Assembly: GCA_021794075.1 (NCBI GenBank)
Contig: JAJYRM010000032.1
Coordinates: 1 to 37,662 of the forward strand
DNA: 37,662 bases
Direction: 5' to 3'
From: Bacteroidota bacterium
GTDB taxonomy: Bacteria; Bacteroidota; Ignavibacteria; Kryptoniales; JAKASW01
Part shown: positions 3,068 through 37,345 of the stretch, piece after piece
Position numbering within the stretch: the first letter of the stretch is position 1
How the letters are laid out: every line of letters starts with the position of its first letter
Position numbers and translations under genes: made by a program
Notes under the pieces: generated by a model
Told to the model about the DNA's origin: nothing
The model's database searches: none
What the model saw: the letters and a program-made list of their open reading frames with translations, nothing else

Positions 3068-3092
3068 TCATGTTTCCTCTGATTAGTTGCTT

Positions 3093-4318: not shown

Positions 4319-4555
4319 CTATCTTATTATGTCCGAGACAAACGGCAGCAGCGCGAGGTGACGTGCACGCTTTATCGCGAGCGCGAGCTGGCGCTGATGC
4401 TTCGCGCAGGTCCCTGTTACCCGGCGGGGAATGATTTTCCCCTGCTCGGAGGTAAACTTCACGAGGCGTTTCTCGTCCTTGTAGTCAATATAGACATCGC
4501 CGCTTTCGCAGAACCTGCAGACTTTTCTTTTCTTGATTTCTTTTACCGGTAGCAA
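4319..4555 (-). CDS. rpsR: 30S ribosomal protein S18
   Basis: S18 sits on the platform of the small subunit and pairs with S6. The sequence has [20 protein letters not shown] and the conserved [20 protein letters not shown] and [12 protein letters not shown] blocks; 78 residues is normal. The start is TTG at 4553-4555: the nearby ATG at 4558-4560 is out of frame, and the reading frame is closed by a stop at 4583-4585 with no ATG or GTG between. It begins 5 bases after the ssb stop, so translation is probably coupled. Confidence 0.95.
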
Positions 4556-4560
4556 TTCAT

Positions 4561-5043: not shown

Positions 5044-5086
5044 AAGTCCTCCATCAATAGTTTGGCCTTACTCTCGATTCTTACAT

Positions 5087-5530: not shown

Positions 5531-5567
5531 TTTAATTCACCTCCTTTGGTCTTTTAATCCTGTTAAT

Positions 5568-6143: not shown

Positions 6144-6206
6144 CTTCGTGCCCAATCCACCGGATCCCTTGAGAATATCGTCATATGCAGCAGGGAATAA
6201 ATCCGC

Positions 6207-6881
6207 TTACTTCTTGGCCTTTTCATCAGGAGCCGCTTCGGCGCCTTCTTCGGTCTTCTTAGTCTTTCCGATGACCTCAGGCTCGGCAGGAGCTTCAGCA
6301 GCTGCTGCAGCCGCGGCTTCCGGAGTCTCTTCCTTGATAACTGGCGGCGGCACGACGGTAACGATCGCGGACTCGAGGTTGTCCATGATCTTGATTCCTT
6401 CGAGCTTCAAGTCTTTTATGTGGACCGAGTCGCCGATCCCGAGTTCAGCAACATCCACGGTGACGTGCTCCGGCACGCTGTCAGGTTCGCAGTGGATCCT
6501 GATCCTGTGAATTGACTGCTGGAGGATCCCACCGTCCTTGATTCCTTTGGCTGAACCTGTCAGGCGAACAGGTATCTCGACGGTGATCTTCTCACCCGCC
6601 CTGATACCATGGAGATCGAAATGAAGGATCTTCCCAACGACGGGGTCGAACTGAACTTCGCTCAGTACCGCGCGCTGCTCAGAACCATCCTCAAACTTTA
6701 CTTTTATGACATGAGCGGCGTGAGATCTGACCAACGTGCGTATCGGAGCTTCGTCCGCCTGGAGCGTGACATTCTCACTCCCCATATAAAACACACCGGG
6801 GACTTTCTTTTCCGAGTAAAGCGTCTTAGCCTTCTTGCCCACCAATGTCCTCTTCTGAACATTAAGCACAACGTCTTGCAT
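6207..6881 (-). CDS. rplY: 50S ribosomal protein L25 / general stress protein CTC
   Basis: This is a 5S rRNA-binding protein of the long CTC/TL5 form. The N-terminal L25 domain (residues 1-95: RTLVGKKAKTLYSEKKVPGVFYM, then FDPVVGKILHFDLHGI) is followed by the TL5 C-terminal beta domain (about 96-185, with VPVRL/VDVAELGIGDSVHI elements) and a charged Ala/Glu-rich tail (about 188-224). ATG 6879-6881 follows an AAGAGG site. The gene begins 9 bases after prs, the conserved prs-ctc pairing. Confidence 0.95.
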   Translation of the reverse strand: MQDVVLNVQKRTLVGKKAKTLYSEKKVPGVFYMGSENVTLQADEAPIRTLVRSHAAHVIKVKFEDGSEQRAVLSEVQFDPVVGKILHFDLHGIRAGEKITVEIPVRLTGSAKGIKDGGILQQSIHRIRIHCEPDSVPEHVTVDVAELGIGDSVHIKDLKLEGIKIMDNLESAIVTVVPPPVIKEETPEAAAAAAAEAPAEPEVIGKTKKTEEGAEAAPDEKAKK

Positions 6882-6890
6882 TTTATCCTC

Positions 6891-7823
6891 TTACTTAATT
6901 TCGAATAATGAACTTATCGATTCGTTCTGGTAAGTCCTCCGAATCGCTTCCGCGAAGAGTCTCGCGACAGATTCCACCTCGATCTTATCCGATTTCCGCT
7001 TCATCGGGACGGTGTCGCTAACGATGAGTTTCTTCAACGGACTGCTTTCTATTCTCTCATAGGCGTTGCCGCTGAAGATCGGATGTGTGCACGCGCCGTA
7101 AATGTCGTTCACCCCCGCGGCCTTCAGTGCGTTTACGCCGGCGACAAAAGTACCGGCGGTATCGATCAGGTCGTCGACGATCAGGACATTCTTTCCCTTC
7201 ACATCGCCGATTATGTTGACAACTTCCGCGATGTTTGCCTTGGGACGTCTCTTGTCGATGAGGACCAGATCAGCTTCAAGCCTTGTGGCGTACGCGCGGG
7301 CGAACTTTATTCCACCGACGTCCGGCGAGACCACGACCAGGTTCGGGATCTTAAGATCTTTTATTTTCTTGACGAAGACCGCGGATGAATAAAGGTGATC
7401 CACGGGTATATCGAAGAAACCCTGTATCTGCGCGGCGTGCAGATCCATGGTTAGAATCCGATCCGCCCCGGCTACGGTCAGGAGATTCGCAACGAGCTTG
7501 GAAGAGATCGCAACTCTCGGCTGATCCTTCCTGTCCTGGCGAGCGTAGCCGAAGTAAGGGATCACCGCCGTAATTCTAGATGCGGAGGCGCGTTTTGCCG
7601 CGTCAACCATGATGAGAAGTTCCATCAGATTCTCAGCCGGGGGGCAAGTGCTCTGAATGATAAAGACATCCGACCCGCGAATGTTGTCGGAGTATTTCAC
7701 CCAGATCTCGCCGTCACTGAAATTGACGATTTCCCTCTCACCTAGAGGTTCGCCGATCTCGTAGGCAATCTTCTCCGCCAGAGCAAGATTGCTTCTTCCA
7801 GAGAATATCTTAATACCGTCCAT
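6891..7823 (-). CDS. prs: Ribose-phosphate pyrophosphokinase (PRPP synthetase)
   Basis: It makes PRPP from ribose 5-phosphate and ATP for nucleotide, His and Trp synthesis. Class I features are FSDGEIWVKYSDNIRGSDVFIIQS, PYFGYARQDRK, the Mg/PRPP-site DLHAAQIQGFF, and the PRPP loop VLIVDDLIDTAGT; 310 residues is normal. ATG 7821-7823 is chosen because the conserved N-terminus begins MDGIKIFSGRSN. It is the first protein gene of the translation operon and lies downstream of tRNA-Gln on the same strand, a common order in this phylum-level group. Confidence 0.97.
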   Translation of the reverse strand: MDGIKIFSGRSNLALAEKIAYEIGEPLGEREIVNFSDGEIWVKYSDNIRGSDVFIIQSTCPPAENLMELLIMVDAAKRASASRITAVIPYFGYARQDRKDQPRVAISSKLVANLLTVAGADRILTMDLHAAQIQGFFDIPVDHLYSSAVFVKKIKDLKIPNLVVVSPDVGGIKFARAYATRLEADLVLIDKRRPKANIAEVVNIIGDVKGKNVLIVDDLIDTAGTFVAGVNALKAAGVNDIYGACTHPIFSGNAYERIESSPLKKLIVSDTVPMKRKSDKIEVESVARLFAEAIRRTYQNESISSLFEIK

Positions 7824-7980
7824 TAGTCTCGTTTTCTTCGCCGGTTCGCAAGGATCCTCCGCGGATGGCGGATTCGGATGTCTCGAAAGCGCCTAAGCGC
7901 AACCGAGGTACCTTACCACTGGCATTTTCAGGATATGTCAAATCTCGAAGCCGCTAAAGATTATTCCACGGCCGTGCATC

Positions 7981-8022
7981 AATACGTTCTTCGTTCCGAT
8001 CAAAAAAACTCGAACGAAGTAT
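7981..8022. other. Long imperfect hairpin between tRNA-Gln and prs
   Basis: On the minus strand, CTTCGTTC followed by a T-rich loop pairs with GAACGAAG. The flanking AATAC and GTATT can extend the stem across a 4-base bulge. It begins just 10 bases after the 3' end of tRNA-Gln and could be a processing or termination signal between the tRNA and prs. The run of seven T lies in the loop rather than after the stem. Confidence 0.45.
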
Positions 8023-8032
8023 TCCATCTACG

Positions 8033-8104
<72 letters not shown>

Positions 8105-8151
8105 ATAGGACTTCCAAGAAACCGCCCACGCCACAATACGCGTAGCGGCTT

Positions 8152-8183
8152 AAAATATACTCCTTCACACGCTTAAAATCAAA
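8152..8183 (-). promoter_or_regulatory. Candidate Bacteroidota-type promoter for tRNA-Gln/prs
   Basis: On the minus strand TTTG (8180-8183) is followed after exactly 20 bases by TATATTTT (8152-8159). This is close to the Bacteroidota primary-sigma consensus TTTG-N19/20-TAnnTTTG. It would start transcription about 40 bases before the tRNA. Confidence 0.5.
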
Positions 8184-8385
8184 GTCCAAACAGACGATTT
8201 GCTTCTCACGTCAAATCGCCTAATTCGGCAAAGTACTCAAAAAGATGCGCTTAGCCGCGTTGCTTGTGGGTATCCCTTTCCAGACAAGATCAAATCATCG
8301 CCAAGTCTGGCAAGTCCGGTTTCCGAACGGAAGGCGTGCTCCGATATTGTCCTCGCCTCAACCTCACCGAAAAGACGATACCGAC

Positions 8386-8769
8386 TTACTTGATCGCCCG
8401 TAAAGCTATTCTATTTCCTTCCGTGTCCTCGAAGACCGACATGTAGCCCATCTCGGGAGATATCTGAGTCCTGGCTATGACAACCCTGCCACCGCCATCT
8501 TCGACTCTATCAATGACATTCTGCAATTCCGGATTTGCATTCAGGTATACAAGCACACCGTCGTGGCTCGGCTTGTAAAAGCGATCATACTCGCACAAAG
8601 CCCCTCCGACCGTTCCCACCCTGACCGGGAAAATCGCCATCTTCAAACCGGTCCCAAGCGTTACCTGCTGCATCCTGATTTCAAAAATCATCTCATAGAA
8701 TTCTTTCGCCCTCGCCAGGTTATGCACCGGTATCTCGAACCAGTTCAATGCACCTTCCATTGACTTCAT
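8386..8769 (-). CDS. VOC-family (glyoxalase-like) protein
   Basis: This is a 127-residue protein with one vicinal-oxygen-chelate fold: NWFEIPVHNLARAKEFYEMIFEI at the N-terminus (the standard beta-alpha start), GTVGGALCEYD in the middle, and YMSVFEDTEGNRIAL at the C-terminus. VOC proteins act as metal-dependent lyases, dioxygenases or resistance proteins. The EDTEGNRIAL ending with the expected Glu supports a metal-binding fold, but the substrate is unknown. The start ATG 8767-8769 has an AGGAGGTG site; a longer frame to 8811 lies upstream of that site. It stands alone between the tRNA promoter and a gene-poor stretch. Confidence 0.85.
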   Translation of the reverse strand: MKSMEGALNWFEIPVHNLARAKEFYEMIFEIRMQQVTLGTGLKMAIFPVRVGTVGGALCEYDRFYKPSHDGVLVYLNANPELQNVIDRVEDGGGRVVIARTQISPEMGYMSVFEDTEGNRIALRAIK

Positions 8770-9108
8770 TGCCCACCTCCTGCGCTGTATAACTAATGCC
8801 CACTTTCCCAATTGCCCTGCTGCACATAAGTGTGTGGGAAATCAGTGAGTGACACGACGCACTCCCCTTGATCACGCACTCTATCGCAGCGTCAGAAAAC
8901 TACCCTGACACCATACAAAATGCAACTAATGGAGGCCCAATCGCCAGACTAATCCGGGCACCGCTTCGGCACGGTATAGCTGACACGTGTTACCAAACAA
9001 AAACCGTTCCCCAATTATGAAGGGCCTGCCTGTTGCATGAGCCACTTTCCCTTTCGACGCCAAAGCGGTTGCAATCTCGACAGGCCGGGAGCTAAGCTCG
9101 CACGAATT
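8770..9108. other. Gene-free stretch
   Basis: No credible coding region, RNA gene or strong hairpin was found. It separates the VOC gene from the DUF4097-like relic and may be decayed coding sequence. Confidence 0.4.
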
Positions 9109-9358
9109 TCAGCGAGCCGATCCCGACGGCAGGATATCGATACGTCCGCTGACTGTCCTCAGGCAGATCGGCGCATCGCCGTTACTAAGCATCCTTGTTA
9201 GACTTGCGCCCAAACGGACGAACGGATTGTGTTCAACTTCAAGTGACAATCTCATTCCTATCGCGAGCCAATACATTCACGTTGCCATTGACATTCCGAA
9301 GGCTTACGGTTCGGTTAGAGGTTAAAGGCCGCCGAAAGGAAGCCGAAAATTCCGGCAA
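9109..9358 (-). pseudogene. Frameshifted DUF4097-like remnant
   Basis: Two minus-strand frames meet here. The first, after a TGA at 9359-9361, reads RTVSLRNVNGNVNVLARD and stops at 9239-9241. The second, overlapping near 9240-9260, reads LEVEHNPFVRLGASL and continues to LRTVSGRIDILPSG, stopping at 9109-9111. The alternating S-G-x-I/V-x-V pattern is like the beta-helical repeats of the intact DUF4097-type gene immediately upstream. No start or signal peptide is present. I read it as a truncated, frameshifted paralogue or a former C-terminal extension. Confidence 0.5.
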
Positions 9359-9395
9359 TCATCGATTCGCCCCATCTTACTTCGCGCACTCCTTC

Positions 9396-10529
9396 CTAAT
9401 GTTCGATGGAGCTAAACTGCTTGATATAGATGTTCCCCGAGGTAGTATGCAGAAGGACTTCTTGACCGCCTCCGTTTATCGTGAACTCAGCCCGACGGGT
9501 CCCATAGCTTCCGGATGTAAAGGTCATCGGGAAGTCCGAGATAATTTTGTCGTCATCGCCACCTGAGATATCGGCTTTGATCGTCACCTTCGCGTCGGAG
9601 GGAAGGTATAGATAAACATCGCCGCCGCTCGACTCGATCCTGCTCGTCCCGTCACCCTTTGGGATCAGACCAACCTTGACAGTTCCGCCGGATGAGTAAA
9701 CATTGGCCGAGCCCACCGCCTGCATGACGTTCACATCGCCGCCGGAGGTGTTTGCACTGACTGTCCCGTCGCCGGACTTAAGAGCGATGTCGCCGCCGGA
9801 AGTGGAGAGTGTCACGTTACCGCCGACTTTACCTACCGAGACATTTCCGCTTGAAGTCGAGGCCGATAGGCTTCCGCCGACGTTGCCGATGCTCATGTCG
9901 CCGCCGGAGGTAGAGGCACGTAGACTGCCCCCCACGGAAGTTACCGCGATGTCGCCGCCAGAAGTGGAGACATCGACATTCTTGACGGCGTGACCGACCC
10001 GGATGTCCCCGCCAGAGGTGGTAAGCTTGGCATCGCCTTCAATATCGCGAAGCGTGATGTCGCCACCGGATGTCTGTCCGCTAACTTCGCCGCTTAAGCC
10101 GTCAAGCGTGAGATCTCCGCCGGAAGTGTGCATGGCCGCCCCACCTTGAAGAGGCCCTGTTATCCTGATATCGCCGCCGGAGGTTGCTAAAGCAACATTG
10201 AAATCCTTCGGCACGTAAAAGTCGAAACGCAGGTTACGCTCCGAAGAAAACCAGCCATGATGCGGATGGAAATCCACCTGCACCGTATTGCCATGAAGTT
10301 CGGCTTTGAGATAATCGGCTTCATCTCCAATGTTCTGGGCCGTCAACTGCACCTGCATCTTGTCCCACACTTTGACCGTAATGTCGCCTCCACTCACCGA
10401 GACAACAAGCTTTCCGCCGTTAGAAACGTTGAAGTCCTTCTGAACGTCTGCGGACGCGCGTTCTGTTCCGAAAGCCATGACGGCCATAAACAGGACCAAC
10501 GTTACCGACAATGAAATATTCTTTTTCAT
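9396..10529 (-). CDS. DUF4097-family repetitive beta-helix envelope protein
   Basis: This is a 377-residue exported protein. A signal peptide (about 1-27, ending FGTERASA) is followed by a repeating beta-solenoid. TSGGD-type motifs recur about every 18 residues, at positions near 116, 135, 153, 171, 189, 207, 225, 243 and 261, with variants at 279 and 300. Such DUF4097 proteins often lie beside ECF sigma/anti-sigma pairs and are predicted envelope or adhesin-like proteins of unknown function. ATG 10527-10529 has an AAAGGAG site and follows the anti-sigma gene by 2 bases, so it is the third gene of a sigma operon and possibly its target or a signal sensor. Confidence 0.85.
   Translation of the reverse strand: MKKNISLSVTLVLFMAVMAFGTERASADVQKDFNVSNGGKLVVSVSGGDITVKVWDKMQVQLTAQNIGDEADYLKAELHGNTVQVDFHPHHGWFSSERNLRFDFYVPKDFNVALATSGGDIRITGPLQGGAAMHTSGGDLTLDGLSGEVSGQTSGGDITLRDIEGDAKLTTSGGDIRVGHAVKNVDVSTSGGDIAVTSVGGSLRASTSGGDMSIGNVGGSLSASTSSGNVSVGKVGGNVTLSTSGGDIALKSGDGTVSANTSGGDVNVMQAVGSANVYSSGGTVKVGLIPKGDGTSRIESSGGDVYLYLPSDAKVTIKADISGGDDDKIISDFPMTFTSGSYGTRRAEFTINGGGQEVLLHTTSGNIYIKQFSSIEH
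9687..10184 (-). repeat. In-gene 54-bp-period repeat (TSGGD coils)
   Basis: Nine to ten degenerate copies of a unit of about 54 bases encode the 18-residue coils of the DUF4097 protein. The plus strand shows recurring GCCGCCGGA-type words. Copies are diverged, so this is an old internal amplification rather than a recent tandem expansion. Confidence 0.75.
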
Positions 10530-10531
10530 GA

Positions 10532-11515
10532 TTACAGCTCCTTTAATTCTTTGAGCATATCTTTTGCCTTAAGTCTAACATATCGGTTTTGATCCGAAGT
10601 GGATTTCTCCCTTAGAACATTGAGGACCTGAGGGTCTACTCGACTGTTGGCGGCCAACGAACCGCGCCTCAACTCTTTTCCCGCCAGGAAGTTGATGGCT
10701 GCCACGCGCATCCCCGGGTTTTTGTCATGCTGAAGGACATAGAGCATCGCTTCCTTGATATTATTATTAAACGGAAGTTTATCAAGCGAAACCAGCGCTT
10801 CCCTCCTGACGCCAGCATTGTCGTCACTCTTGACGGCCCTTATCAGTGCATCCTCTACCTCCCTGTCGGGTCTCCCCGAAGCATCGATCATTCCTATTGT
10901 TTTCAACCTGACGCCTGGATTATCCGAATTCACCAACGCGTACGCCAGTATCTTCTGAATATTCCTGTTATCAATAGAACCTTCCACCTCGTATGGCTTG
11001 ACGACGTTGAATGAGAACTTAAGATTGCCCGACGCGGTCTCACCTTCGAGGAAACGAACGTCCGTTATGGCGGCCGCGCCCGCTCCCTTCGCGGAAATCT
11101 CTGAGACAACATTGCGAACCGATTGCGCACCATACCTTCCGCCGAAGATCAGATAGCCCGAGATAACTCCCGCTGCAAGCGCCACCAATGCCACTCCGGC
11201 GACTTCATAAGCAGGCGTTAAGCTATTTATCCAGCGCTGCCGAGACTGTGAATCCGCATATCCGGCCCTTCCAGCTTTCTGATTTTTTTTCCGGGTCAAG
11301 AAGTTCCTTACCCGACTTCTTGCTTCCTGTATTAGCTGCTCGATATCCATTTCCGGTCGCGCATCCACTTTCGGAAGGAGTTCGTCCAGCTGCCGGGACA
11401 ATTTGGAGCATGACGGACACTGCTTGAGGTGATTTTCCAACGACGCTTCGTCGTCGCGCCCTATTTCGTCATAGCGGGAAAGGACAATGAGTTCTTCATA
11501 CCTTTTGTGTCTCAT
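10532..11515 (-). CDS. Zinc-finger anti-sigma factor with C-terminal HEAT repeats
   Basis: This protein of about 327 residues has an N-terminal zinc-finger anti-sigma domain (H29, C33, C36 in ENHLKQCPSC). A linker is followed by one membrane helix (about 104-124, VAGVALVALAAGVISGYLIF). The C-terminal extracytoplasmic part contains HEAT-like helical repeats from about residue 180 (NSDNPGVRLKTIGMI, SDDNAGVRREALVSL, DKNPGMRVAAINFL). ATG 11513-11515 has an AGGAG site; an ORF extended to 11545 would overlap the sigma gene. It begins 13 bases after the sigma gene, so it should bind and hold that factor at the membrane. HEAT repeats on the outer side suggest a protein-binding sensor. Confidence 0.88.
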   Translation of the reverse strand: MRHKRYEELIVLSRYDEIGRDDEASLENHLKQCPSCSKLSRQLDELLPKVDARPEMDIEQLIQEARSRVRNFLTRKKNQKAGRAGYADSQSRQRWINSLTPAYEVAGVALVALAAGVISGYLIFGGRYGAQSVRNVVSEISAKGAGAAAITDVRFLEGETASGNLKFSFNVVKPYEVEGSIDNRNIQKILAYALVNSDNPGVRLKTIGMIDASGRPDREVEDALIRAVKSDDNAGVRREALVSLDKLPFNNNIKEAMLYVLQHDKNPGMRVAAINFLAGKELRRGSLAANSRVDPQVLNVLREKSTSDQNRYVRLKAKDMLKELKEL

Positions 11516-11528
11516 AATCGATCTCCTC

Positions 11529-12164
11529 TTAAAGAACGGCTTCAAGTTCCTTCTGCAGCCTGCGAACGGCCTCGTAAAGATGCTTTTTCACCGTGCCTTC
11601 GGAACAATCAGCCAACGAGGCAATTTCTCTGAGCTTGTAGCCTTCATAGTGCTTCATTGTGAATACGAACCTCTGCATCGGAGAAAGCCCGCAGAGTGCC
11701 CGCTCGATTTGCCTGCCAAGTTCGGCCTTGAAAAACTCCCCCTCCGTTGTGTGCGATGAAGGAGGTTCATGCGAGTACGCGTCTTCCTGTGCATCGTCGC
11801 GCAGGCCCTCCCCCGCTAAAGAAACATTCAGGTGCCGCTTTTGGGCTGTCCTAAAGCGAATACAAACATTGGTCGCGATCCTGTAGAGCCAAGTCGAAAA
11901 CTCACTCCGCATTTCAAATTTCCCAATGGATCTATACGCCCGTATGAGTGTCTCCTGGTAAATGTCTTTTGCATCGTCTGAATTTCTGGCATAAGAAAAT
12001 GCAAGCGAGAGAATCCGCCGGTCGTATCTCTGGACCAGCTCTTCGAAAGCATTAACATCCCCGCCCTGCGCGCTTATTATCAGTTCTCTGTCAGTGACGA
12101 TGCTCGTTGCGGCCGAGATTTCCGGCAATTGTTCCTCTTTTTTTTCGTCTCTGGGCGTTTTCAT
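11529..12164 (-). CDS. RNA polymerase ECF sigma factor
   Basis: This 211-residue sigma-70-family factor has region 2 at about residues 45-115 (FEELVQRYDRRILSLAFSYARNSDDAKDIYQETLIRAYRSIGKF, then FSTWLYRIATNVCI) and region 4 at about 150-208 (LSPMQRFVFTMKHYEGYKLREIASLADCSEGTVKKHLYEAVRRL). It has an extra charged N-terminus of about 25 residues. ATG 12162-12164 follows an AGGAG site 9 bases upstream. It leads an operon with a zinc-finger anti-sigma factor and a DUF4097 protein, so it probably controls an envelope response; its target promoter cannot be deduced here. Confidence 0.93.
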   Translation of the reverse strand: MKTPRDEKKEEQLPEISAATSIVTDRELIISAQGGDVNAFEELVQRYDRRILSLAFSYARNSDDAKDIYQETLIRAYRSIGKFEMRSEFSTWLYRIATNVCIRFRTAQKRHLNVSLAGEGLRDDAQEDAYSHEPPSSHTTEGEFFKAELGRQIERALCGLSPMQRFVFTMKHYEGYKLREIASLADCSEGTVKKHLYEAVRRLQKELEAVL

Positions 12165-27832: not shown

Positions 27833-28294
27833 TCATTCCCCCTGCGAGCGCATTAGGATGGCCCTCAGATCGGTTATCTCTCGCTCCTGAGTCTCAAGCT
27901 TGCTGTAAAGATCGACAAGGTGTTCGTAAAGCTGATTCTCCAATATTCTCGACTGAGACACGTCTTCAAAGTGAAATACAATTTCGCCCCTTGTGTCGTT
28001 CAGGTTATAAGCCTTCACCTTGAAGTACTTCTCCGTTCCCCTCTGCTTCAGAGTACGCGAACTCTCTCCTCGCGACAGACACTCCGAAACCATTCGTTCA
28101 ATCGCGGCCGAATCTTCCGACTGGAGCAAATTTTCCAACTCCACCTTTTTCCCTCTCTCCAATCTAATCGGCAAGGCTTCCCTGGCACACTGGTTCGCGT
28201 ATATAAGTAAAAGTTCGTCGTCGGTCAGCACGAATGGGATCCGCACGGTCTCGAAGACCCGATAGCAATCGGAAAAGAGTGTCTCTTCTGCCAT
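27833..28294 (-). CDS. PAS-domain protein with C-terminal coiled coil
   Basis: This 153-residue cytoplasmic protein has one PAS-like sensor fold (about 8-118: FETVRIPFVLTDDELLLIYANQCAREALP at the start and GEIVFHFEDVSQSRILENQL at the end). A short heptad-like helix follows (LVDLYSKLETQEREITDLRAILM). No output domain (kinase, GGDEF, HTH) is attached, so it must act through a partner. ATG 28292-28294 has no clear ribosome site. It lies 159 bases downstream of the chaperone-usher-like locus on the same strand, which may be coincidental. Confidence 0.8.
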   Translation of the reverse strand: MAEETLFSDCYRVFETVRIPFVLTDDELLLIYANQCAREALPIRLERGKKVELENLLQSEDSAAIERMVSECLSRGESSRTLKQRGTEKYFKVKAYNLNDTRGEIVFHFEDVSQSRILENQLYEHLVDLYSKLETQEREITDLRAILMRSQGE

Positions 28295-28453: not shown

Positions 28454-28813
28454 TCAGCTACCGAGGTAAACTACTTCTACTTTCGAGACCCCTTTGAAAT
28501 CTTTCTCGCTGAAATCGCGGACTTGCCCCTGCCTCAGGCTGATCGTCATTTTTGTGGAGTTGTTCTTCTTCATCTGAATCAAGACATTCTGCGGACAGCT
28601 GAAAGAGAGGATGGGCTGATCCTGCGAGGCGTGTTTGGAGACAAAAGAGAGCGCCCGAGTTTGTCTTGAGACCGGAGCTATCTTTAGACCGGGCGCAGCA
28701 ACGACAGTAAGGGTCACCGTCGCCGTAGCGGTTACCTGAGCCTGGGTCGTGGGCGCCCATAACACTACCGCGGCAACCGCGAGCATCAACGATATGTACC
28801 AGGTATTCTTCAT
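28454..28813 (-). CDS. Small secreted protein of the chaperone-usher-like locus
   Basis: This 119-residue protein has a clear signal peptide (1-26, ending PTTQAQ). The mature start VTATATVTLTVVAAPGLKIAP resembles the N-terminal alternating strand of the DUF4402-like subunits further upstream (compare ATISLSILPAISI). The rest is shorter than a full domain and has a single Cys (SFSCPQNV), lysine-rich turns and the end KVEVVYLGS. ATG 28811-28813 has a GGAAG site. It lies 220 bases downstream of the usher-like gene. It may be a minor or tip subunit, a terminator subunit, or unrelated; I do not recognise a named family. Confidence 0.7.
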   Translation of the reverse strand: MKNTWYISLMLAVAAVVLWAPTTQAQVTATATVTLTVVAAPGLKIAPVSRQTRALSFVSKHASQDQPILSFSCPQNVLIQMKKNNSTKMTISLRQGQVRDFSEKDFKGVSKVEVVYLGS

Positions 28814-29032: not shown

Positions 29033-32000
29033 TCAACGATGAGGTAGCAATTGGGTTGCATTGAGATCGCAGTACGATTTGATCTCTTTGGCAGCCTTCA
29101 GAACTTCCCTGATGCTCTTAAAGGCGGATGTGAAGACACTGAACTCGCATTTGTCGCGGTTAAATTCCACGAACGCAAGCCCGCCCGTACGAAATCGAAA
29201 TAGTCTCGCGAACTCCAAAGCCTCACGTTCATCATGAAAATCGCCGAGCGTAAAGCCAAACCGCCTTTGGTTATCCGACTTTCCGCTGATCACGACAACG
29301 GCATTACTTAAATGATATTTCTTACTCAGGACACCCAAAGCTTCATCGGCCTCTCTTCTGGTACGGTATGATTCGGCGATTACAGTGAAGAGGCCAGTAG
29401 ATCTATTATAATTTACTTGAGTAGGAATGTGATCTTCTCTTCTAATTAAGGAATCATAACGGATGGCGGTTGGCAGATGACGGAATGTCCCGAACTGAAT
29501 CGCAAAGAAATATTTCGTGCCGCTGTCGGCGGAAGAGCTGATAAATGCGTCGAGGTAACCGAACCTGTTAATCATTACATCCAGCCGCTCCATCGCGAGC
29601 TTCCTGCTGTCCAGCGAATCCGACTGCACCACATATAATCCCGATCTTGAGGAGTGATGCTCGACAAAATCCTGGCCCGTTTTGATTCTGGTAGCCCTCG
29701 CGAATTTTGCCGCGCGCTCACTGGAAGTGAAAGCGCCTACCTGTACGAAGTATTTTTCTCTTGGCGCTGTCATCCCAACCTTTACCGGAGGCTTTGTCTC
29801 AGTCGGCGTTGGCTTCTGGCGCGGCTTGAGGATGATCTTGAGTCCTTCTATGATGTCTCCGTCCTTTGTAGGTTTAACGGCGAATTTTAGGATAGATGGA
29901 TCCGCGGTGAGCCCGAGTATCGACAATTGGGCCGAGTCGACGTAAGCCCTATATCCGCCGGGAGGAAGTCCCATGTAATAGAAACTTCCGTCGTTGAACA
30001 CCGGGACCGTCGTCTTGAAGCTTCCGCTGTCGGATGCGATCTCCAGACTCAATCCGGGAATTGCAGATAACACTCCCTTTTCATCCCGCAGGACGTTTCC
30101 CTGAGCAATTCCTCCGGCGTAGAATGGTATATCGACCCTCTTGTATGAATTCGGATCGGTGATGAATGAGAAGGATTTCCATTTCGGGATCAGTAGGGGA
30201 TTTCTGATCGTGCTTAAATCGACATCGGCGCTGTACTGCGTGTACGGAAGCATGTTCCATTCTCTTGTGATACCGTTGCTCGATGTTTCCGACGACACCG
30301 CCTGCCTCAGCGTGATCGAGCCGTGTCTGATAATTTCTTCACCTTTATCGTATCTCCCGTTGCCGTTGGCGTCGACAAACATTCTAACTGACGCGGCGGA
30401 GCGCCCGACCCAGCCGAGGTCGTTAAAGAGAAATTGGCCGTAATTGCTGTCGTACCCTACGGAGCCCGAGAAATTCTGGCTGTAGAAACCTGAGCCGCCC
30501 TGGAACTGCGCGCTCGTGGTCGACCTGATGAAAGGAAGATCGGCAATTATCTGCAGGTTGAACGTCGTCGCTTTGTTGATGTAATTCCGATCCGCCGTGA
30601 ATCCAATTCTAATGTATCGGAGGACATTCTTCGAGAGTTGAAGAGAAATGTCGTCGGGGGAATTCTTCAGGACGCCGTACCTGCCGGTCACGCTGACGAG
30701 CGTCCCGTTCAGAAAATTAAACGCCCCCTGTCCAAAGAAGAGTGAGTAGAGGACTGACCCAGTCAGGTTATAGTTATTGTCGGTCGGCCCGACGCCGTAA
30801 TCGATTATCGATTTGGTATACCCCACAGACACATTCAGTTGCGAAAGGCTCGAGGAGAAATTTGCCGAGTAGCTGTATGATTTCTGTCCGCCATAGTACG
30901 TCTGGGCGATCCCGGCGACTCTGAAATTCAGCGAGTTCCTTCCGATATAAAACGGCACGAACGCGTCGGCCTGCAGCTCCTGCAGGCGGAGACTCGGATT
31001 GTAAAGCATGTTCTGGCTGTAGTGGCCGTATTCGAGATCGAAGGCCGTCTGCGAAGCATAGAGCGCGTTGAAAGAAGTTCTGTAGAACGCGTCCGGCGCC
31101 GCGTCGATGCTCATAGTGTATTCAGGACCGAAGCGAAGATATAGCGAGTTGTAAAGAAGCGGCTTCGAGAACAGAGGGTCGTCGACATAATCGAGTCCCA
31201 GCTTGTCCGTCGCCCAACTGGTGATGCCAAACAACGCGTTCGCCGAGAGAAAATTGTAGTTCGTATTGTTCACCAGTCCCGCGCTGACCGAGTAATTAAG
31301 CTGCCCGGCAGGGACGAATGAAAACGGGATCTGAAGCCGCCGGTCTTCTTCGCGGAACTGCCCGTTAGGCCCGTAGTATTTGAGCTGAATGTAGGTGGTC
31401 CCGTAGACAAGCGGTATGGTGAACTGCGCCCTTCCCTGAGAGTCGGCGCGCTTGTAAGCCGCGAGTTGCCCGTTCAAATAGAGCTCGACATCCCAGTTCG
31501 GATTTGTCCGCGCGTTTATTACGTATTGGCCGAATATTGTTCTCACGGTCAGCGGTTCGTTGGAAACCTGAGCCCCGCGGAATCCATAACTCGTCAGCCC
31601 GTCGGAGTAAAGGTTGCCCAGCCCCGCGTAAGATATGTAAGCCGAAGAATCGAAAGTGTACTTCCAGCTCAGAGTGCTCGAATAGAGGCTTGGGTTCCCG
31701 CCCGAGACGGCGCCGAGTAAGCTCCCTTCGGTCTCTCCGCCCAGTATTTCCGCGCCACCCGTGAGGCTGTAACTATATGACGTCGGCCCTCCGGTGTTGA
31801 AGGCTGACAACGAATAATCGACAACACCTCCGTTCAGCAGATATTTCTTCCCCGGGAATTTCAGCGGCGCCTGTTCCAGATTTGTTTGCGGCGAAACGAC
31901 CATGTAGCCGCGGCGCATCTCGCGCTGGTAATCCCTTACCACCGGAAGTTCCTGCTCGGTGCTGAGTATCAGCGAGAGAGAATTGAAATCGATGTTGAAA

Positions 32001-32407
32001 TGAAGATCGAACGCCTCTTTGAAAAAAGAAGGAAGGACATAGTAATCGAGCTGTCCACGTATGACATTTGTCGTGTCGAACTGGAACGCCTTCTCGCCCA
32101 CCTTCCCGACGCCGGTTCCGAAATTTATGTCGTACGGATCTTTCTGGTCGATGTAAAATCCCCTAAGAGTCTTCGCGCCCATATCGAGATTTGCGTCTAC
32201 CCTGAGCTGCCTCAGCACCGTTCCGATCGGGATATAGACCGAATCCTTGTAGTAAAGCCCCGTAACTACAGTATTAACGACGCCGCCGAAACTGAAGGAA
32301 AGGTAGACATCCTGCGCCTGTTGATACGCGGACGCACTCTGTGCCCTGGTACAATTGGCAGAGAGCGTGATGAGAATGATTACCCAGATGAACCTTCGTG
32401 CGCAGAT
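29033..32407 (-). CDS. Usher-like outer-membrane protein with three C-terminal SPOR repeats, probable ATC start
   Basis: This protein of about 1124 residues has a signal peptide (FIWVIILITLSANCTRAQ) and an N-terminal domain (DVYLSFSFGGVVNTVV and following). A beta-barrel region follows, with an inserted plug-like domain (about 288-373: VELYLNGQLAAYKRADSQGR, YYGPNGQFREEDRRLQIPF, PAGQLNYSVSAG). After the barrel come a Ca-loop-like DANGNGRYDKGEE (about 679) and a usher C-terminal-like beta domain (GLPPGGYRAYVDSAQL, about 813). Three SPOR-like repeats end it (886-958, 966-1040, 1049-1122). The features match alternative (CS1-like) ushers best. The frame is open to a TGA at 32411-32413; the first GTG (32218) would cut off the signal peptide and N-terminal domain. 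The only start near the GGGAG site is ATC 32405-32407. Confidence 0.8.
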   Translation of the reverse strand: MCARRFIWVIILITLSANCTRAQSASAYQQAQDVYLSFSFGGVVNTVVTGLYYKDSVYIPIGTVLRQLRVDANLDMGAKTLRGFYIDQKDPYDINFGTGVGKVGEKAFQFDTTNVIRGQLDYYVLPSFFKEAFDLHFNIDFNSLSLILSTEQELPVVRDYQREMRRGYMVVSPQTNLEQAPLKFPGKKYLLNGGVVDYSLSAFNTGGPTSYSYSLTGGAEILGGETEGSLLGAVSGGNPSLYSSTLSWKYTFDSSAYISYAGLGNLYSDGLTSYGFRGAQVSNEPLTVRTIFGQYVINARTNPNWDVELYLNGQLAAYKRADSQGRAQFTIPLVYGTTYIQLKYYGPNGQFREEDRRLQIPFSFVPAGQLNYSVSAGLVNNTNYNFLSANALFGITSWATDKLGLDYVDDPLFSKPLLYNSLYLRFGPEYTMSIDAAPDAFYRTSFNALYASQTAFDLEYGHYSQNMLYNPSLRLQELQADAFVPFYIGRNSLNFRVAGIAQTYYGGQKSYSYSANFSSSLSQLNVSVGYTKSIIDYGVGPTDNNYNLTGSVLYSLFFGQGAFNFLNGTLVSVTGRYGVLKNSPDDISLQLSKNVLRYIRIGFTADRNYINKATTFNLQIIADLPFIRSTTSAQFQGGSGFYSQNFSGSVGYDSNYGQFLFNDLGWVGRSAASVRMFVDANGNGRYDKGEEIIRHGSITLRQAVSSETSSNGITREWNMLPYTQYSADVDLSTIRNPLLIPKWKSFSFITDPNSYKRVDIPFYAGGIAQGNVLRDEKGVLSAIPGLSLEIASDSGSFKTTVPVFNDGSFYYMGLPPGGYRAYVDSAQLSILGLTADPSILKFAVKPTKDGDIIEGLKIILKPRQKPTPTETKPPVKVGMTAPREKYFVQVGAFTSSERAAKFARATRIKTGQDFVEHHSSRSGLYVVQSDSLDSRKLAMERLDVMINRFGYLDAFISSSADSGTKYFFAIQFGTFRHLPTAIRYDSLIRREDHIPTQVNYNRSTGLFTVIAESYRTRREADEALGVLSKKYHLSNAVVVISGKSDNQRRFGFTLGDFHDEREALEFARLFRFRTGGLAFVEFNRDKCEFSVFTSAFKSIREVLKAAKEIKSYCDLNATQLLPHR
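29042..29752 (-). repeat. Three SPOR-like repeats in the usher-like protein
   Basis: Repeat 1 (29534-29752) begins YFVQVGAFTSSERAAKFA. Repeat 2 (29288-29512) begins YFFAIQFGTFRHLPTAIRY. Repeat 3 (29042-29263) begins RFGFTLGDFHDEREALEFA. Each is 73-75 residues and has the SPOR order: beta strand with x-Q-x-G-x-F, helix, strand with LY/FxV, helix, strand. The first keeps the canonical VQVGAF; the other two are diverged. Short linkers of 7-8 residues separate them. Confidence 0.8.
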
Positions 32408-32486
32408 GTGTCACTCCCGCGTGTTTCTTCTCGTTTAGCCCATGACAACTTCATTTCGGCCCGAAAGGAAATGGGCCGGCAGACGC

Positions 32487-33308
32487 TCACTCCATTCTGA
32501 ACGCGAAAGACTTCTCGACCGTCGGGATTTTAATCATGTCCTCGCCGGGAATGTCGGTCCTTTCGGATTCCAACTTGAAGTCCGCGGTGTACGATCCGCT
32601 CCTTAGATCGGAGAGAGGTACGGGAAATTTCACCACCATCTTGTTCTGATAAATTGCCAGCACCTGCTGATTCGTGTACACTGTGTTTCCCGCGTGATCC
32701 TTCACTACGGCTGACATCCTTCCGAAGAAGGGTGAGTTCCCGCCGCGCGCCACGTCCGCCATCAGGTTCATCGAAGTGCTGTCCTGTTCGGACACAAGTC
32801 TTTGTATCTGAACGCTCGTGTTGACGTACCCCTTTTTGAAAATTACCGTCGTGACCTGCTGGAGCACGAAAGTGATGTTCGCGGTGATCCCGCTTCGAAC
32901 GGTGTCGATGGTCTTCGCCTGCGGAGTCGAACTCGTGATGAGCCTCGTCCAGTACTCGCCGTCCTGTATCCCCGCCGGCGGAGACGCGAGGAGTCGGACG
33001 ACCTGCTGCTGCCCCGGATTGAGGATGAACTTCTGAGGAAACCCGCGAAGCCACGACTCGCAAGAGTGCTCTTGAGCCATCAGGGAATCGTTGTAGTTCA
33101 TCGTGATATTCCCGAGAGAATCGGATTCAGGGAAACCGAACTTGAACGATACCCCGATTTCCTGAGGGGTGTTGGACCTGTTCATCACCACGAACGTGCC
33201 GAAGCGAGACTGGTCGCTCATGAAAAGTATCGTCGGTGCGACGACAACTTGCGCCCTCGCGGCTGCGAAGGAGAAGAGTATCAATAGCGCGGATAGTGTT
33301 TTTTTCAT
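32487..33308 (-). CDS. PapD-like periplasmic chaperone
   Basis: This 273-residue exported protein has a signal peptide (1-19, ending AAARAQ). Domain 1 is Ig-like: VVVAPTILFMSDQSRFGTFVVMNRSNTPQEIGVSFKFGFP, then QKFILNPGQQQVVRLLASPPAGIQDGEYWTRLI. The PGQQQVVRL and DGEYWTRL segments are the usual F1-G1 and following strands of pilus chaperones. A second Ig-like domain ends in KSFAFRME. Such chaperones cap subunits in the periplasm by donor-strand complementation and deliver them to the usher. It lies between the subunit genes and the usher gene, 79 bases upstream of the usher. ATG at the MKKTL start is clear. Confidence 0.85.
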   Translation of the reverse strand: MKKTLSALLILFSFAAARAQVVVAPTILFMSDQSRFGTFVVMNRSNTPQEIGVSFKFGFPESDSLGNITMNYNDSLMAQEHSCESWLRGFPQKFILNPGQQQVVRLLASPPAGIQDGEYWTRLITSSTPQAKTIDTVRSGITANITFVLQQVTTVIFKKGYVNTSVQIQRLVSEQDSTSMNLMADVARGGNSPFFGRMSAVVKDHAGNTVYTNQQVLAIYQNKMVVKFPVPLSDLRSGSYTADFKLESERTDIPGEDMIKIPTVEKSFAFRME

Positions 33309-33347: not shown

Positions 33348-34301
33348 TCAGTAATTAACTGTCACCGTGAAAGTACCACTGTACGCCCCCGCGGGCTGGC
33401 TCGCCGGTACAGGGGCGATCGACCCGCCAAGCCAGAAATAATAGTAACCCGTCTGGCCGGACGTTCCACTCAAGGTCACGGCCGTCTGCGAAGCGACCGC
33501 CGTCGCTCCGGCCTGGCCCGTGGATAGGCTTGAGCCATAGAGGCTCGGGAGGAACGTTATCGTGTTGCCGTACATATCGCTGATGGGAATCGAAGACGCG
33601 TAAGAAACCGTCATGCTCTTACCTCCGCTCCCGGCCGCTGTTAACTCGGGCGCGGAGCCGCTCTGCGCGGAGATCGCGGCAGGCGTCGTGCCTGCTATGA
33701 TCTGTCCAAAATCAAGCGAGCCCGTCTCGCTCAGCGATAGTCCCTGGATTACAGACGCGGTCACGGGGATAGTCTGACTCGCCGTGTAACTGGCTTTCGG
33801 CTTTGAAACGGACACCTTGGCCGTGACAGATATTGTCCCGGTGTAATTTCCCGAAGGGAGCCAGCTTCCACCGGGCGCGGCGGTTCCACCGATCCAGACG
33901 TATAGATTGAGCGGCGTGTTGGCGTAGATATGCTGGTAGATTCCCGAGCTCGGACCGAAGTAAGTAATTCCCGAGAAACTGTTGGTCGTGTTCCAGCAAG
34001 CCGAGTTGGTGGAATAGGATACGTTCATGGTATGGCTGCCGCCCGCCGTCAGGCTATAGGGTAGTGTAATCGAGACATTAATGCTGGCATAAGCATACTT
34101 CGACATCGTGTACCCGGGCACCTGGATCAAGAAAGCCGCTGCCGTCGGGTCGGTTGGAGCGACGGTGTTCGTCGTGTTCCCCAGCGACATGCCGAATGTC
34201 AATCCCTGGAATACTGTAATGGTTGGAGACTGCGCCCTCAAGGCGGGGACTTCAATCGTCGCCATGGCGAGCAAAACTATTATTTGGAAAAGCTTCTTCA
34301 T
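33348..34301 (-). CDS. Two-domain DUF4402-like secreted subunit
   Basis: This 317-residue protein has a signal peptide ending ALRAQ and two similar beta-rich domains. Domain 1 (about 25-170) has GLTFGMSLG and NLYVWIGGTAAPGG, ending SGNYTGTISVTAKV. Domain 2 (about 180-317) has GSLDFGQIIAGTTPAAIS and YYFWLGGSIAPVPASQ, ending AGAYSGTFTVTVNY. The LDFG...WLGG...GxYxGxxxVTV pattern is that of DUF4402 proteins. The alternating hydrophobic C-terminal strand ending in Tyr resembles pilins assembled by chaperone-usher systems. ATG 34299-34301 follows AAGGA. It lies 39 bases upstream of the chaperone gene. Confidence 0.82.
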   Translation of the reverse strand: MKKLFQIIVLLAMATIEVPALRAQSPTITVFQGLTFGMSLGNTTNTVAPTDPTAAAFLIQVPGYTMSKYAYASINVSITLPYSLTAGGSHTMNVSYSTNSACWNTTNSFSGITYFGPSSGIYQHIYANTPLNLYVWIGGTAAPGGSWLPSGNYTGTISVTAKVSVSKPKASYTASQTIPVTASVIQGLSLSETGSLDFGQIIAGTTPAAISAQSGSAPELTAAGSGGKSMTVSYASSIPISDMYGNTITFLPSLYGSSLSTGQAGATAVASQTAVTLSGTSGQTGYYYFWLGGSIAPVPASQPAGAYSGTFTVTVNY

Positions 34302-34472: not shown

Positions 34473-35396
34473 TCACTGGACCACGGTAATTATAAAGTTA
34501 CCGGAATATTTTCCCGGAGCCTGGCCGATCAGTACGGCGCTGATCGAACCGCCCAACCAGAAATAGTAGACTGTAACCCCTCTTCCCGTCTTCAGAGCGG
34601 AACCGGAAGCGATCGGCACAGCCTTGGCCTGGTTGTTTTTCGCCGAGCCGTAAAGGCTCGAGGTGAAGTCGAGCGTATGGCCGTTCCCGTCGCTCAGCGC
34701 CACGGTGCTCGAATATGTTACGATGCTTTTGTTGTTTCTGACGCCGGTCGCTGTTATTAGCGGCGCCCCTCCGGCAAGCGCGCTCAGTGTGGGCGGAGTG
34801 GTGCCCGCCACCATCAATCCGAAATCGAGCGACCCGCTGACTGAAAGCGATATGTTTCCCTGAAGCGTCGCCGTAATCGTTATTACCTGGCTCGAAACGT
34901 AGTGTTCTGTTCCGACCGTCACGTCAACATTGACGGTCACTTCCCCGGTATAGTCCGAGGCGACGAAATTCTTCGGAGGGGTGACGGTCGCTCCCAACCA
35001 GAAGTAGTCCGTATGCGCGGTCTGACCGAGTGTGCCGCTCAGGCCGGTGCTCGGATTGAAGGCGGTAGCCGCGCTAACGCTGTTCGTGCCGACGCTGTAA
35101 GCGGCGGAATTGGCCGCGAAAGATACTGGAAGATTATTCCCCGCGAGGTCGGTCAAATTCGTCGGGAGAACAAACGTAAGCGCCATGGACGCCGACTGAG
35201 CGTAGTTTGGGAACTGAATCTCGAACGCGGCCGCGTTCGCGTTGCTGTAGGCCAAAGTTGTCGCGGCCGTGATATTCCCGAAAGAAAGCTCACGCGTGAC
35301 AACGATTGTAGCACTCTGGGCAATCGACTCTCCAGCCGCTGCCAGGAGCAGAAAGCCCGTCATGGATGTCTGACGCAACCACTTCTTAGATCTCAT
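34473..35396 (-). CDS. Two-domain DUF4402-like secreted subunit
   Basis: This 307-residue protein is a paralogue of the one at 33348, with the same architecture. The signal peptide ends ESIAQ. Domain 1 (about 28-165) has RELSFGNITA and YFWLGATVTPPKNF, ending SDYTGEVTVNVDVTV. Domain 2 (about 175-307) has GSLDFGLMVAGTTPPTLSAL and VYYFWLGGSISAVLIGQ, ending GKYSGNFIITVVQ. ATG 35394-35396 has only a weak AGGG site. It may be an adaptor, tip or adhesive subunit; function is inferred only from context. A gap of about 170 bases separates it from the next subunit gene. Confidence 0.82.
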   Translation of the reverse strand: MRSKKWLRQTSMTGFLLLAAAGESIAQSATIVVTRELSFGNITAATTLAYSNANAAAFEIQFPNYAQSASMALTFVLPTNLTDLAGNNLPVSFAANSAAYSVGTNSVSAATAFNPSTGLSGTLGQTAHTDYFWLGATVTPPKNFVASDYTGEVTVNVDVTVGTEHYVSSQVITITATLQGNISLSVSGSLDFGLMVAGTTPPTLSALAGGAPLITATGVRNNKSIVTYSSTVALSDGNGHTLDFTSSLYGSAKNNQAKAVPIASGSALKTGRGVTVYYFWLGGSISAVLIGQAPGKYSGNFIITVVQ

Positions 35397-35450: not shown

Positions 35451-35993
35451 TTAATAGGAAACGCTTACCAGATAAGTCCCGCTGTAGACTCCTGGCGGAA
35501 CGTTTCCCACATTGACAGAACCGAAAACATAAACAAACGCCTGCGCCGTCTGATTTGTCCTGTTGGCCTTGAGCCTGAATCCCGATTGTAGTCCGGAGGG
35601 GGTCGTCCATATCGTCGCCGTCGCGGGATCGTCGGCTGTCGCGTTGTAGCCCGCCCCGGGAGCGTACGAGACCGAATCGCTTACGCCCAGAAGCCATGGC
35701 GGCGGCGTCAGCGTGACGTACACCGTCTTGTTGGACTGACCCGATATGGTGACCTTCCCCGCGGCCGCGTCGGTTATCGCGACGGAGCGGGGGCCGCTGC
35801 TCGCCACGGCGCTTCCGAAATTCAGCTCTCTGTCGACGTAAAGAGAGAGACCCACCGCGACGCCTATCGAGGCCGACCTCGTCTGCGTCACCGAAGACTG
35901 GGCGGCAGCTTCGGTCGCGAACGGAAAGCAGGAGAGAATGCCGACGACGAGGAGCGCGGCGCGAGTATAATATCTTTGACCCGCCGTTCTCAT
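35451..35993 (-). CDS. Single-domain DUF4402-like secreted subunit
   Basis: This 180-residue protein has a signal peptide of ~32 residues (ending TEAAAQ), then SSVTQTRSASIGVAVGLSLYVDRELNFGSAV, a long alternating strand that could serve as the donor strand. The body is one beta domain, and the end is PPGVYSGTYLVSVSY. A WLGG-like motif is replaced by FVYVFGSVN. ATG 35991-35993 overlaps the preceding stop as ATGA, so its translation is coupled to the gene at 35990. Confidence 0.8.
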   Translation of the reverse strand: MRTAGQRYYTRAALLVVGILSCFPFATEAAAQSSVTQTRSASIGVAVGLSLYVDRELNFGSAVASSGPRSVAITDAAAGKVTISGQSNKTVYVTLTPPPWLLGVSDSVSYAPGAGYNATADDPATATIWTTPSGLQSGFRLKANRTNQTAQAFVYVFGSVNVGNVPPGVYSGTYLVSVSY

Positions 35994-36538
35994 TGGTATG
36001 CGACGGTGAGGTGAAAATAGCCGGTGTATGTTCCTCCCGCGGCGGAGCTCGGCACGGCGACAGTACCTCCGATCCAGACGTAATAGACTCCCGAGCCGCT
36101 CATGGTTATGGTACCTCCGCTTGTGAGCTGCGCGGCGGTCTGTTGCGAGGAAGAGACCTGAGCTCCGACGGCCAGGAGGCTGAACGAGAGCTTGTTGCCG
36201 AGCGAATCCGTCAGAGTCACGGCAGGCGAGCTGAACGAGGCGGTCATAGGCATGTCCGCCCCCGCGCTTATGGTAAAGAGGCTCGCCGATGAACTCGTGT
36301 GCGGATCTATTGACGCTGTTGTGTTGACGATCGCGAGCCCGAAGTTGAGGTCGCCGGCGCCGTCGTTGCCTGAAGAGGAGGTGATGGAAATGGCGGGGAG
36401 GATTGAGAGGGATATCGTGGCCTTTGCACTAAGTGATATCTGCGCCTCGGCAGCACGGCTTACAAGCATTAGAGGTACCATTAGCAATGGTAGCATCCTG
36501 TATCTGGAACAGCTCGTTTTTAAGAAGGTATTAATCAC
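35990..36538 (-). CDS. Single-domain DUF4402-like secreted subunit, GTG start
   Basis: This 182-residue protein has a signal peptide ending SRAAEAQ and then ISLSAKATISLSILPAISI (an alternating strand). The single domain has GDLNFGLAIV and VYYVWIGGTVAVPSSAAGG, and it ends TYTGYFHLTVAYQ. GTG 36536-36538 has an AGGGA site 6 bases upstream; ATG 36496 would shorten the signal peptide to the MLPLLM start. The C-terminal VAYQ is shared with the first subunit at 36848. Confidence 0.8.
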   Translation of the reverse strand: MINTFLKTSCSRYRMLPLLMVPLMLVSRAAEAQISLSAKATISLSILPAISITSSSGNDGAGDLNFGLAIVNTTASIDPHTSSSASLFTISAGADMPMTASFSSPAVTLTDSLGNKLSFSLLAVGAQVSSSQQTAAQLTSGGTITMSGSGVYYVWIGGTVAVPSSAAGGTYTGYFHLTVAYQ

Positions 36539-36847: not shown

Positions 36848-37345
36848 TCATTGATAAGCAACGGTCAGCGTGTATGTGCCCTTATACAATCCCGCCGCCT
36901 CGTTGCCTGTAAGAGTTATGCTACCGCTTAGGGTGAAATAGTAATTCCCAGAACCAGGGAAGCTCCCCTGCAACTGATAAGAGGTGCTCGTGTTCGCATC
37001 GGTCGATGTGGGAGTGGTAGTCGTACTGGCAGTAAGCGTAGGGCTAAACGTTATGCTTCCATTCGCGCCTGATGAGGAGTCACCAAGCGTTACAGTCGTC
37101 GGCATATTCGTGATTTGAATGTTAGCTCCCGCAGTTCCGGTCACTGTGAAAGTGGCTTCACTTGTTGAGTTGACCGTCCCACTTGTAATAGCCACATTTC
37201 CGAAGCCTACGCTTCCAGACACGGTCATCGTAAGGCCCTTGAGCAAGTTGGCCTGAATTTCAGCACCAGCGTTGGCGTTCAATTGGGCTTTAGATACCCC
37301 TGCAAGGCCCATCACCATTGTGGCAATGACGAATAATTTCTTCAT
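36848..37345 (-). CDS. Single-domain DUF4402-like secreted subunit, probable major subunit
   Basis: This 165-residue protein has signal peptide MKKLFVIATMVMGLAGVSKAQ, then LNANAGAEIQANLLKGLTMTVSGSVGFGNVAI, and one beta domain rich in Ser/Thr/Gly. It ends YYFTLSGSITLTGNEAAGLYKGTYTLTVAYQ, the DUF4402-type ending. It has the strongest ribosome site of the locus (AGGAGG, 7 bases before ATG 37343-37345) and is followed by its own terminator, so it is the best candidate for the abundant subunit. A promoter-like element lies at 37418-37448. Confidence 0.83.
   Translation of the reverse strand: MKKLFVIATMVMGLAGVSKAQLNANAGAEIQANLLKGLTMTVSGSVGFGNVAITSGTVNSTSEATFTVTGTAGANIQITNMPTTVTLGDSSSGANGSITFSPTLTASTTTTPTSTDANTSTSYQLQGSFPGSGNYYFTLSGSITLTGNEAAGLYKGTYTLTVAYQ

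Follow-up and report, generated by a model that had tools for sequence, protein, structure and literature searches.

A divergent usher-like protein with three C-terminal SPOR repeats in a Bacteroidota genome, and recurrent wall-binding tails among its relatives

To characterize a candidate pilus assembly platform, we analyzed a 37,662-nucleotide stretch of DNA from a Bacteroidota bacterium (Ignavibacteria; Kryptoniales; assembly GCA_021794075.1). This stretch, hereafter the window, is one whole contig (JAJYRM010000032.1) of a 4.5-Mb genome that is 99.8% complete. The gene of interest encodes an usher-like outer-membrane protein that ends in three SPOR repeats. An earlier note, made from the sequence alone, had described it as a single gene with this domain order, and the reading frame bears this out: the minus-strand frame is uninterrupted from stop to stop (32410-29036), with an usher core followed by a SPOR tail (Table 1). 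We observed homology of the core to ushers, a core-then-tail domain order, conservation of that order, and recurrence of wall-binding tails among relatives. On balance, we favor the view that the protein is a divergent usher that exports DUF4402 subunits and that its three-SPOR tail ties it to peptidoglycan.

By homology, a highly divergent usher makes up the first ~865 residues. This claim of the earlier note was supported by profile-profile comparison and by fold search, even though the protein lies below Pfam detection. Using hhalign, we compared a profile of the core family with five gamma ushers from Escherichia coli, which gave scores of 95.9% (31 sequences) and 97.3% (E = 1.7e-11; 96 sequences). 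The alignment was collinear over 499 columns and spanned the entire barrel, plug included. Three unrelated E. coli decoy proteins scored 0.1 to 0.2% against the core profile. When the AlphaFold model was compared with the PDB using Foldseek, ranks 1 to 12 were all occupied by FimD or PapC (best E = 1.8e-11 over 927 columns). The TM-scores to these structures were low, at 0.1 to 0.2, so the match reflects the order of elements and not their geometry. In a second structural comparison, PapC again came first (Z = 12.0 over 176 residues), and unrelated porins reached 11. The C-terminal GLPPGGYRAYVD domain, which had been singled out from the sequence, forms a CnaB or carboxypeptidase-regulatory-like beta-sandwich in the AlphaFold model, and 18 of 22 relatives had a CarboxypepD_reg match. 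We also considered a relationship with alpha-type ushers (ECP/CS1). No clear match to EcpC was obtained by profile comparison (5 to 7%, with a single EcpC sequence), which is a weak test of low power, as EcpC itself reached just 3.5% against the gamma ushers.

The region beyond the core was classified as SPOR by both Pfam score and fold, in agreement with the identity first proposed for it. Scanned as a whole, the tail matched PF05036 over three stretches (E = 6.7e-10) with 39.6 bits, where the cut-off is 21, and all three repeats adopt the beta-alpha-beta-beta-alpha-beta order in the AlphaFold model. Repeat 1 superposes on the crystal structure of the RlpA SPOR domain (6i05) with a Z score of 9.8 and a root mean square deviation of 2.5 Å across 74 of 76 residues. 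In the structure of RlpA bound to glycan, the sugar chain is touched by Q270, F274, and a cluster made up of R302, R309, and R311 (PMC6895207). The counterparts of RlpA Q270, G272, and F274 in repeat 1 (Gln889, Gly891, and Phe893) are invariant across eight full-length orthologs, while the rest of the tail is mostly variable. In repeat 2, the contact Gln and Phe are mostly retained, with the Gln present in most orthologs. Repeat 3 went unrecognized when scanned alone against PF05036, and the repeat 3 of the L004 ortholog scored 18.9 bits. Judging from these residues, the tail seems to have one or two repeats competent for glycan binding, with a modified site.

The fusion of usher and SPOR is found in about 12 orthologs at 52 to 82% identity, and the source genome encodes a second SPOR-tailed usher, a paralog with 40% identity. 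An assembly error is ruled out as the origin of the fusion, which occurs across the genus, in the paralog, and in other families. Within the class, 60 of 197 genomes contained a match to the full-length protein, in either its core or its tail; within the phylum, the core profile found matches in 90 of 395 genomes. We labeled the tails of 96 distinct cores, about 20 representatives with Pfam and the remainder by eye, as SPOR (n = 42), SPOR plus LysM (n = 1), TPR plus SPOR (n = 1), OmpA (n = 5), TPR (n = 18), none (n = 27), or other (n = 2). A tail of a peptidoglycan-binding type (SPOR, SPOR plus LysM, TPR plus SPOR, or OmpA) was therefore carried by 49 of the 96 relatives. The OmpA tails stand at the position that corresponds to the SPOR tail and were recognized by Pfam with E values of 1e-7 to 1e-18. 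A FastTree phylogeny requires at least 19 changes of the tail label, and at least 10 of SPOR on well-supported branches; these counts are of lower quality, as they come from long branches and related genomes. Even so, the tail is clearly a module that can be exchanged. The earlier note knew of no other usher with SPOR domains, but the survey shows that wall-binding tails are common in the phylum and that the architecture is not singular. Ushers and SPOR domains are each known, and we found no description of their fusion on a pilus platform in the open-access literature searched.

Other features were noted among these relatives. The ushers with an OmpA-type C-terminal domain include L136, L137, L140, and L153, and the usher at L135 (genome G035, 3026-6532) ends in SPOR repeats plus a LysM domain. 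Long N-terminal extensions of about 250 to 570 residues precede the core in L057/L139, L030, L038, L087, and L091.

In the ushers of known structure, FimD and PapC, both ends of the chain are periplasmic. By analogy, the tail of the window protein would also be periplasmic. It would be able to reach the sacculus because the last usher domain would lie on that side of the membrane and because about 20 proline-rich residues link this domain to the tail. There, glycan binding, chiefly by repeats 1 and 2, would fasten the usher to the sacculus from within the periplasm. The simplest function of such a tether would be to anchor the platform against pull on the pilus. As a possible extra, the tail may place the platform where amidase-denuded glycans occur. 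The strongest case for tethering to the wall comes from the recurrence in this family of SPOR, LysM, and OmpA tails, which share the property of binding peptidoglycan. The tie between platform and peptidoglycan that was first suggested from the SPOR repeats is thereby supported in its logic, and is strengthened by the relatives that have OmpA or LysM at the corresponding position.

The same tails bear on whether anchorage is the main role. The earlier note had raised placement at division sites or poles. It is possible, but in our judgment unlikely, that the main job of the tail is to direct the usher to septa or poles, where pili would then emerge, with anchorage being incidental. Characterized SPOR domains recognize denuded glycan at the septum (PMC6895207), and repeat 1 has invariant glycan-contact residues. 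What argues against this explanation is the exchange of SPOR for OmpA or LysM at the same position in relatives, which leaves anchorage as the common denominator. Domains of the OmpA and LysM types bind the wall beyond septa.

Several findings weigh against a wall-tethered usher. The Pfam Usher model (PF00577) did not match the window protein, which missed the cut-off, and no family was matched when the usher core was scanned with NCBIfam and Pfam. Four distant relatives from family f39 gave Usher E values of 1.9e-5 to 7e-4, all below the cut-off and all within open reading frames found by the family profile. Structure prediction, which the earlier note had suggested as a check of the core, was in partial agreement: FimD and PapC lead the Foldseek ranking, but the model did not resolve a barrel of 20 to 24 strands. 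With a 9-sequence alignment, the predicted local distance difference test (pLDDT) values of the barrel region were mostly below 30 to 60. Similarly, the description of the tail as three SPOR repeats holds for the fold of all three but not for the competence of all: the Gln is absent from repeat 3 in 8 of 8 full-length orthologs, and counterparts of RlpA R309 and R311, the basic residues that hold the lactyl group, are apparently absent, as judged by eye. Finally, the 27 relatives labeled as having no tail lack any such module, two orthologs retain roughly one and a half repeats, and another is broken in repeat 1. As these three shortened or broken tails show, a complete set of three repeats is not essential. 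The truncated or frameshifted tails are those of L005 (10590-11001), L008, and L019.

The genes surrounding the usher point to a pilus system. Five DUF4402 genes and a chaperone gene lie upstream of the usher, all on its strand, and the usher would serve as the outer-membrane pore of this chaperone-usher system, through which the DUF4402 subunits would be exported. The chaperone family profile scored 71% against the FimC family and 63% against EcpB, with decoys below 1%. Its AlphaFold model was of moderate quality; WxLIP and GH2 enzymes headed the Foldseek list, in which EcpB ranked 23rd (E = 5.4e-4). Where a relative had enough flanking sequence, a member of the chaperone family nearly always lay near the usher or directly upstream of it. 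In the pilins of P and type 1 pili, the C terminus carries Gly at position -14 and Tyr at position -2. This pattern is exact in two of the five DUF4402 proteins, and the other three have Gly at -13. A search of the open-access literature on DUF4402 found nothing relevant. We considered whether the protein could instead be an outer-membrane barrel with a purpose other than pilus assembly, in which case the DUF4402 proteins would not be built into fibers. The failure of AlphaFold to resolve the barrel, the modest likeness of the chaperone to FimC and EcpB with WxLIP as its best structural match, and the empty literature search would be compatible with such a barrel. It is made very improbable, however, by the collinear usher homology that includes the plug segment, the adjacency of the chaperone, and the pilin-like C-terminal motif of the subunits.

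The position given as the start of the usher gene in the earlier note, 32407, is an ATC codon. There is no ATG, GTG, or TTG in frame before residue 64, where the first is a GTG at 32218, beyond the signal peptide. The ATC sits six bases past a Shine-Dalgarno (SD)-like sequence and opens a good signal peptide. In 10 congeneric loci, the ATC is invariant and its spacing from the SD-like sequence is kept, and in 5 of the 10 an in-frame stop lies one codon ahead of it. Because no standard start codon lies upstream, and because of the SD-like spacing, the signal peptide, and the invariance of the ATC, the best reading of the sequence is that the gene probably initiates at AUC.

Table 1. Features of the usher-SPOR gene and its neighbors in the window.
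Feature	Coordinates	Strand	Details and evidence
Usher-SPOR gene	29033..32407	(-)	1124 aa; probable start ATC 32407-32405; stop 29035-29033
SD-like GGGAG (32418-32414) plus 6 nt, including in-frame TGA one codon ahead of ATC	32408..32418	(-)	
Signal peptide ICARRFIWVIILITLSANCTRA	32342..32407	(-)	Sequence inspection; n-/h-region kept in orthologs
N-terminal periplasmic domain, in position of usher N-terminal domain	31958..32314	(-)	AlphaFold pLDDT mostly about 55-86; covered by FimD/PapC Foldseek alignments
Usher barrel region with plug, collinear with FimD about 180-768	30197..31843	(-)	hhalign 97.3%, E 1.7e-11, 499 columns
Plug/middle-domain segment WDVELYLNGQ...IPFSFVPAGQ	31298..31525	(-)	hhalign against FimD plug segment; kept across class
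C-terminal CnaB-like beta-sandwich (GLPPGGYRAYVD)	29795..30115	(-)	Structural Z up to 11.9, 100 residues, rmsd 2.8
SPOR repeat 1, FVQVGAF	29531..29755	(-)	PF05036 28 bits alone; RlpA SPOR Z 9.8; glycan-contact Gln and Phe invariant
SPOR repeat 2, IQFGTF	29282..29512	(-)	PF05036 17.5 bits alone (35.7 in L004); fold
SPOR-like repeat 3, FTLGDF, Gln lost	29045..29260	(-)	Model fold
PapD-like periplasmic chaperone	32487..33308	(-)	PapD_N E 0.024; profile against FimC/EcpB
Long DUF4402 protein, possible tip adhesin	33348..34301	(-)	317 aa; PF14352 E 2.8e-11, two matched stretches; pilin-like C-terminal motif
Long DUF4402-like protein, possible tip adhesin	34473..35396	(-)	307 aa; PF14352 9.9e-5, two stretches, 23.4 bits, below cut-off 25.2
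DUF4402-like pilin-like protein	35451..35993	(-)	PF14352 5e-5, 24.4 bits, slightly below cut-off
DUF4402 pilin-like protein	35990..36538	(-)	PF14352 4e-7; Gly -14, Tyr -2
DUF4402 pilin-like protein	36848..37345	(-)	PF14352 4.5e-7; Gly -14, Tyr -2
Small secreted protein, directly downstream of usher	28454..28813	(-)	119 aa; tblastn, about 9 congeneric genomes, 30-72% identity
PAS-domain protein, syntenic downstream	27833..28294	(-)	PAS_4 E 3.7e-6; 55-85% identity in congeneric loci

Among the neighboring genes, the small secreted protein downstream of the usher had no informative family match, and genes resembling it occur near L022, L146, and L147. Elsewhere in the same genome, a second chaperone-usher operon (G000:C183; L134, 9916-16742) contains a SPOR-tailed usher, DUF4402 genes, and a normal ATG start.

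In sister lineages, usher relatives with a short TPR tail are associated with homologs of flagellar motor genes. At L143 (genome G264, 3954-11680), such an usher is followed closely by genes for a FliG-half protein, a TPR lipoprotein, a MotA-like protein, and a MotB-like protein. Domain scores were 1.5e-11 for FliG_C and 7e-17 for the MotA-like protein, and the MotB-like protein has plug, OmpA, and SPOR domains. Compared with E. coli, the profiles of this cassette scored 96% for FliG, 98% for MotB, and 84% for MotA. The ion-binding Asp of MotB aligns in the MotB-like protein, and the N-terminal half of the FliG-like protein has a weak likeness (2%) to the last periplasmic stretch of FliF. The cassette lies directly downstream in 17 of 17 ushers with this short TPR tail and in none of 54 others, including that of the window, in a comparison where flanks were wide but some were short and the genomes are related. 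The loci are L143, L144, L149-L152, L159, L162-L170, and L189, the last of which ends with the FliG-like gene at the end of its contig. The MotB-like proteins of these loci have OmpA and, in family f39, also SPOR. Genus g136 holds both states, with and without the cassette, and L149 belongs to the window's own class. Across the phylum, a FliF/FliG-like protein was found in 18 of 395 genomes, mostly adjoining an usher. Copies distant from an usher locus, mostly second copies (G421:C24, G226:C61, G255:C2, G320:C12, G238:C12, G305:C8, and G436:C22), appear to belong to another motor system.

These loci raise the question of whether the tail of the window protein docks a periplasmic or inner-membrane protein partner and is not a glycan binder. 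A docking role would accommodate the loss of the glycan Gln from repeat 3 and the apparently missing arginine clamp, and it has a parallel in the sister-lineage TPR tails, all 17 of which adjoin FliG-, MotA-, and MotB-like genes. Yet the glycan-contact motif of repeat 1 is invariant, no motor genes lie beside the window's usher, and a FliF/FliG-like protein was not found in its genome at an E value of 1e-15; we consider docking quite improbable. A related proposal, that the usher tail is the product of a recent in-frame deletion that fused it to a MotB tail, was unsupported. In family f39, the SPOR repeats in the MotB-like tail are related (up to 84 bits) to the SPOR tails of motorless ushers, but the tails of each group are more similar to one another, and the tail of the window protein is roughly equidistant from MotB tails and f39 usher tails.

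Returning to the wall-tethered usher, we tentatively place it in a broader scheme, somewhat less probable than otherwise, in which this phylum and its kin have usher platforms wired into the envelope. The form with TPR, FliF/FliG, and MotA/MotB components would be a motor-driven pilus, rotating or energized, without flagellar export, and the window protein would be the static, wall-anchored form. A search of the open-access literature on ushers together with MotA and FliG found nothing relevant, and these motor-linked loci of sister lineages may represent a greater novelty than the usher-SPOR fusion.

The window protein resembles several known systems. It shares with the FimD/PapC ushers (PF00577) a collinear barrel and plug profile, periplasmic domains at the N and C termini, an adjoining chaperone gene, and pilin-like genes in the operon. 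In contrast to those ushers, it falls below the Pfam Usher cut-off, has a CnaB-like last domain, is accompanied by DUF4402 subunits, and has the added three-SPOR tail. With RlpA, FtsN, DamX, and DedD (PF05036), it has in common the SPOR fold and, in repeat 1, the glycan-contact Gln and Phe. However, its SPOR domains sit on an outer-membrane export platform and not on a division protein or enzyme, are present in three copies of which the third has no Gln, and are without the arginine clamp. Wall-binding modules also occur on the outer-membrane pores of other assembly machines, which offers a precedent for the proposed tether. In Legionella, the type II secretion system secretin LspD has a SPOR-like domain; anchoring of other secretins to the wall occurs via GspB or TsaP, as with GspB/OutB or the AMIN domain of PilQ and the LysM domain of TsaP (PMC9239104). 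Unlike the usher, with its C-terminal module, these secretins are unrelated multimeric pores, and their module sits at the N terminus or belongs to a partner. The flagellar stator protein MotB offers a further likeness, in that the neighboring MotB-like protein of sister lineages combines OmpA with related SPOR repeats, whereas the window's usher has no adjoining motor genes and its tail does not appear to have been copied recently from a MotB tail. In textbooks, ushers are presented as free machines of the outer membrane, requiring neither a link to the wall nor ion energy. If our reading is true, a widespread family of wall-tailed ushers alternates with versions linked to a flagellar-type stator and rotor, suggesting that chaperone-usher platforms could be anchored or energized in the manner of type IV pili, type II secretion systems, and flagella.

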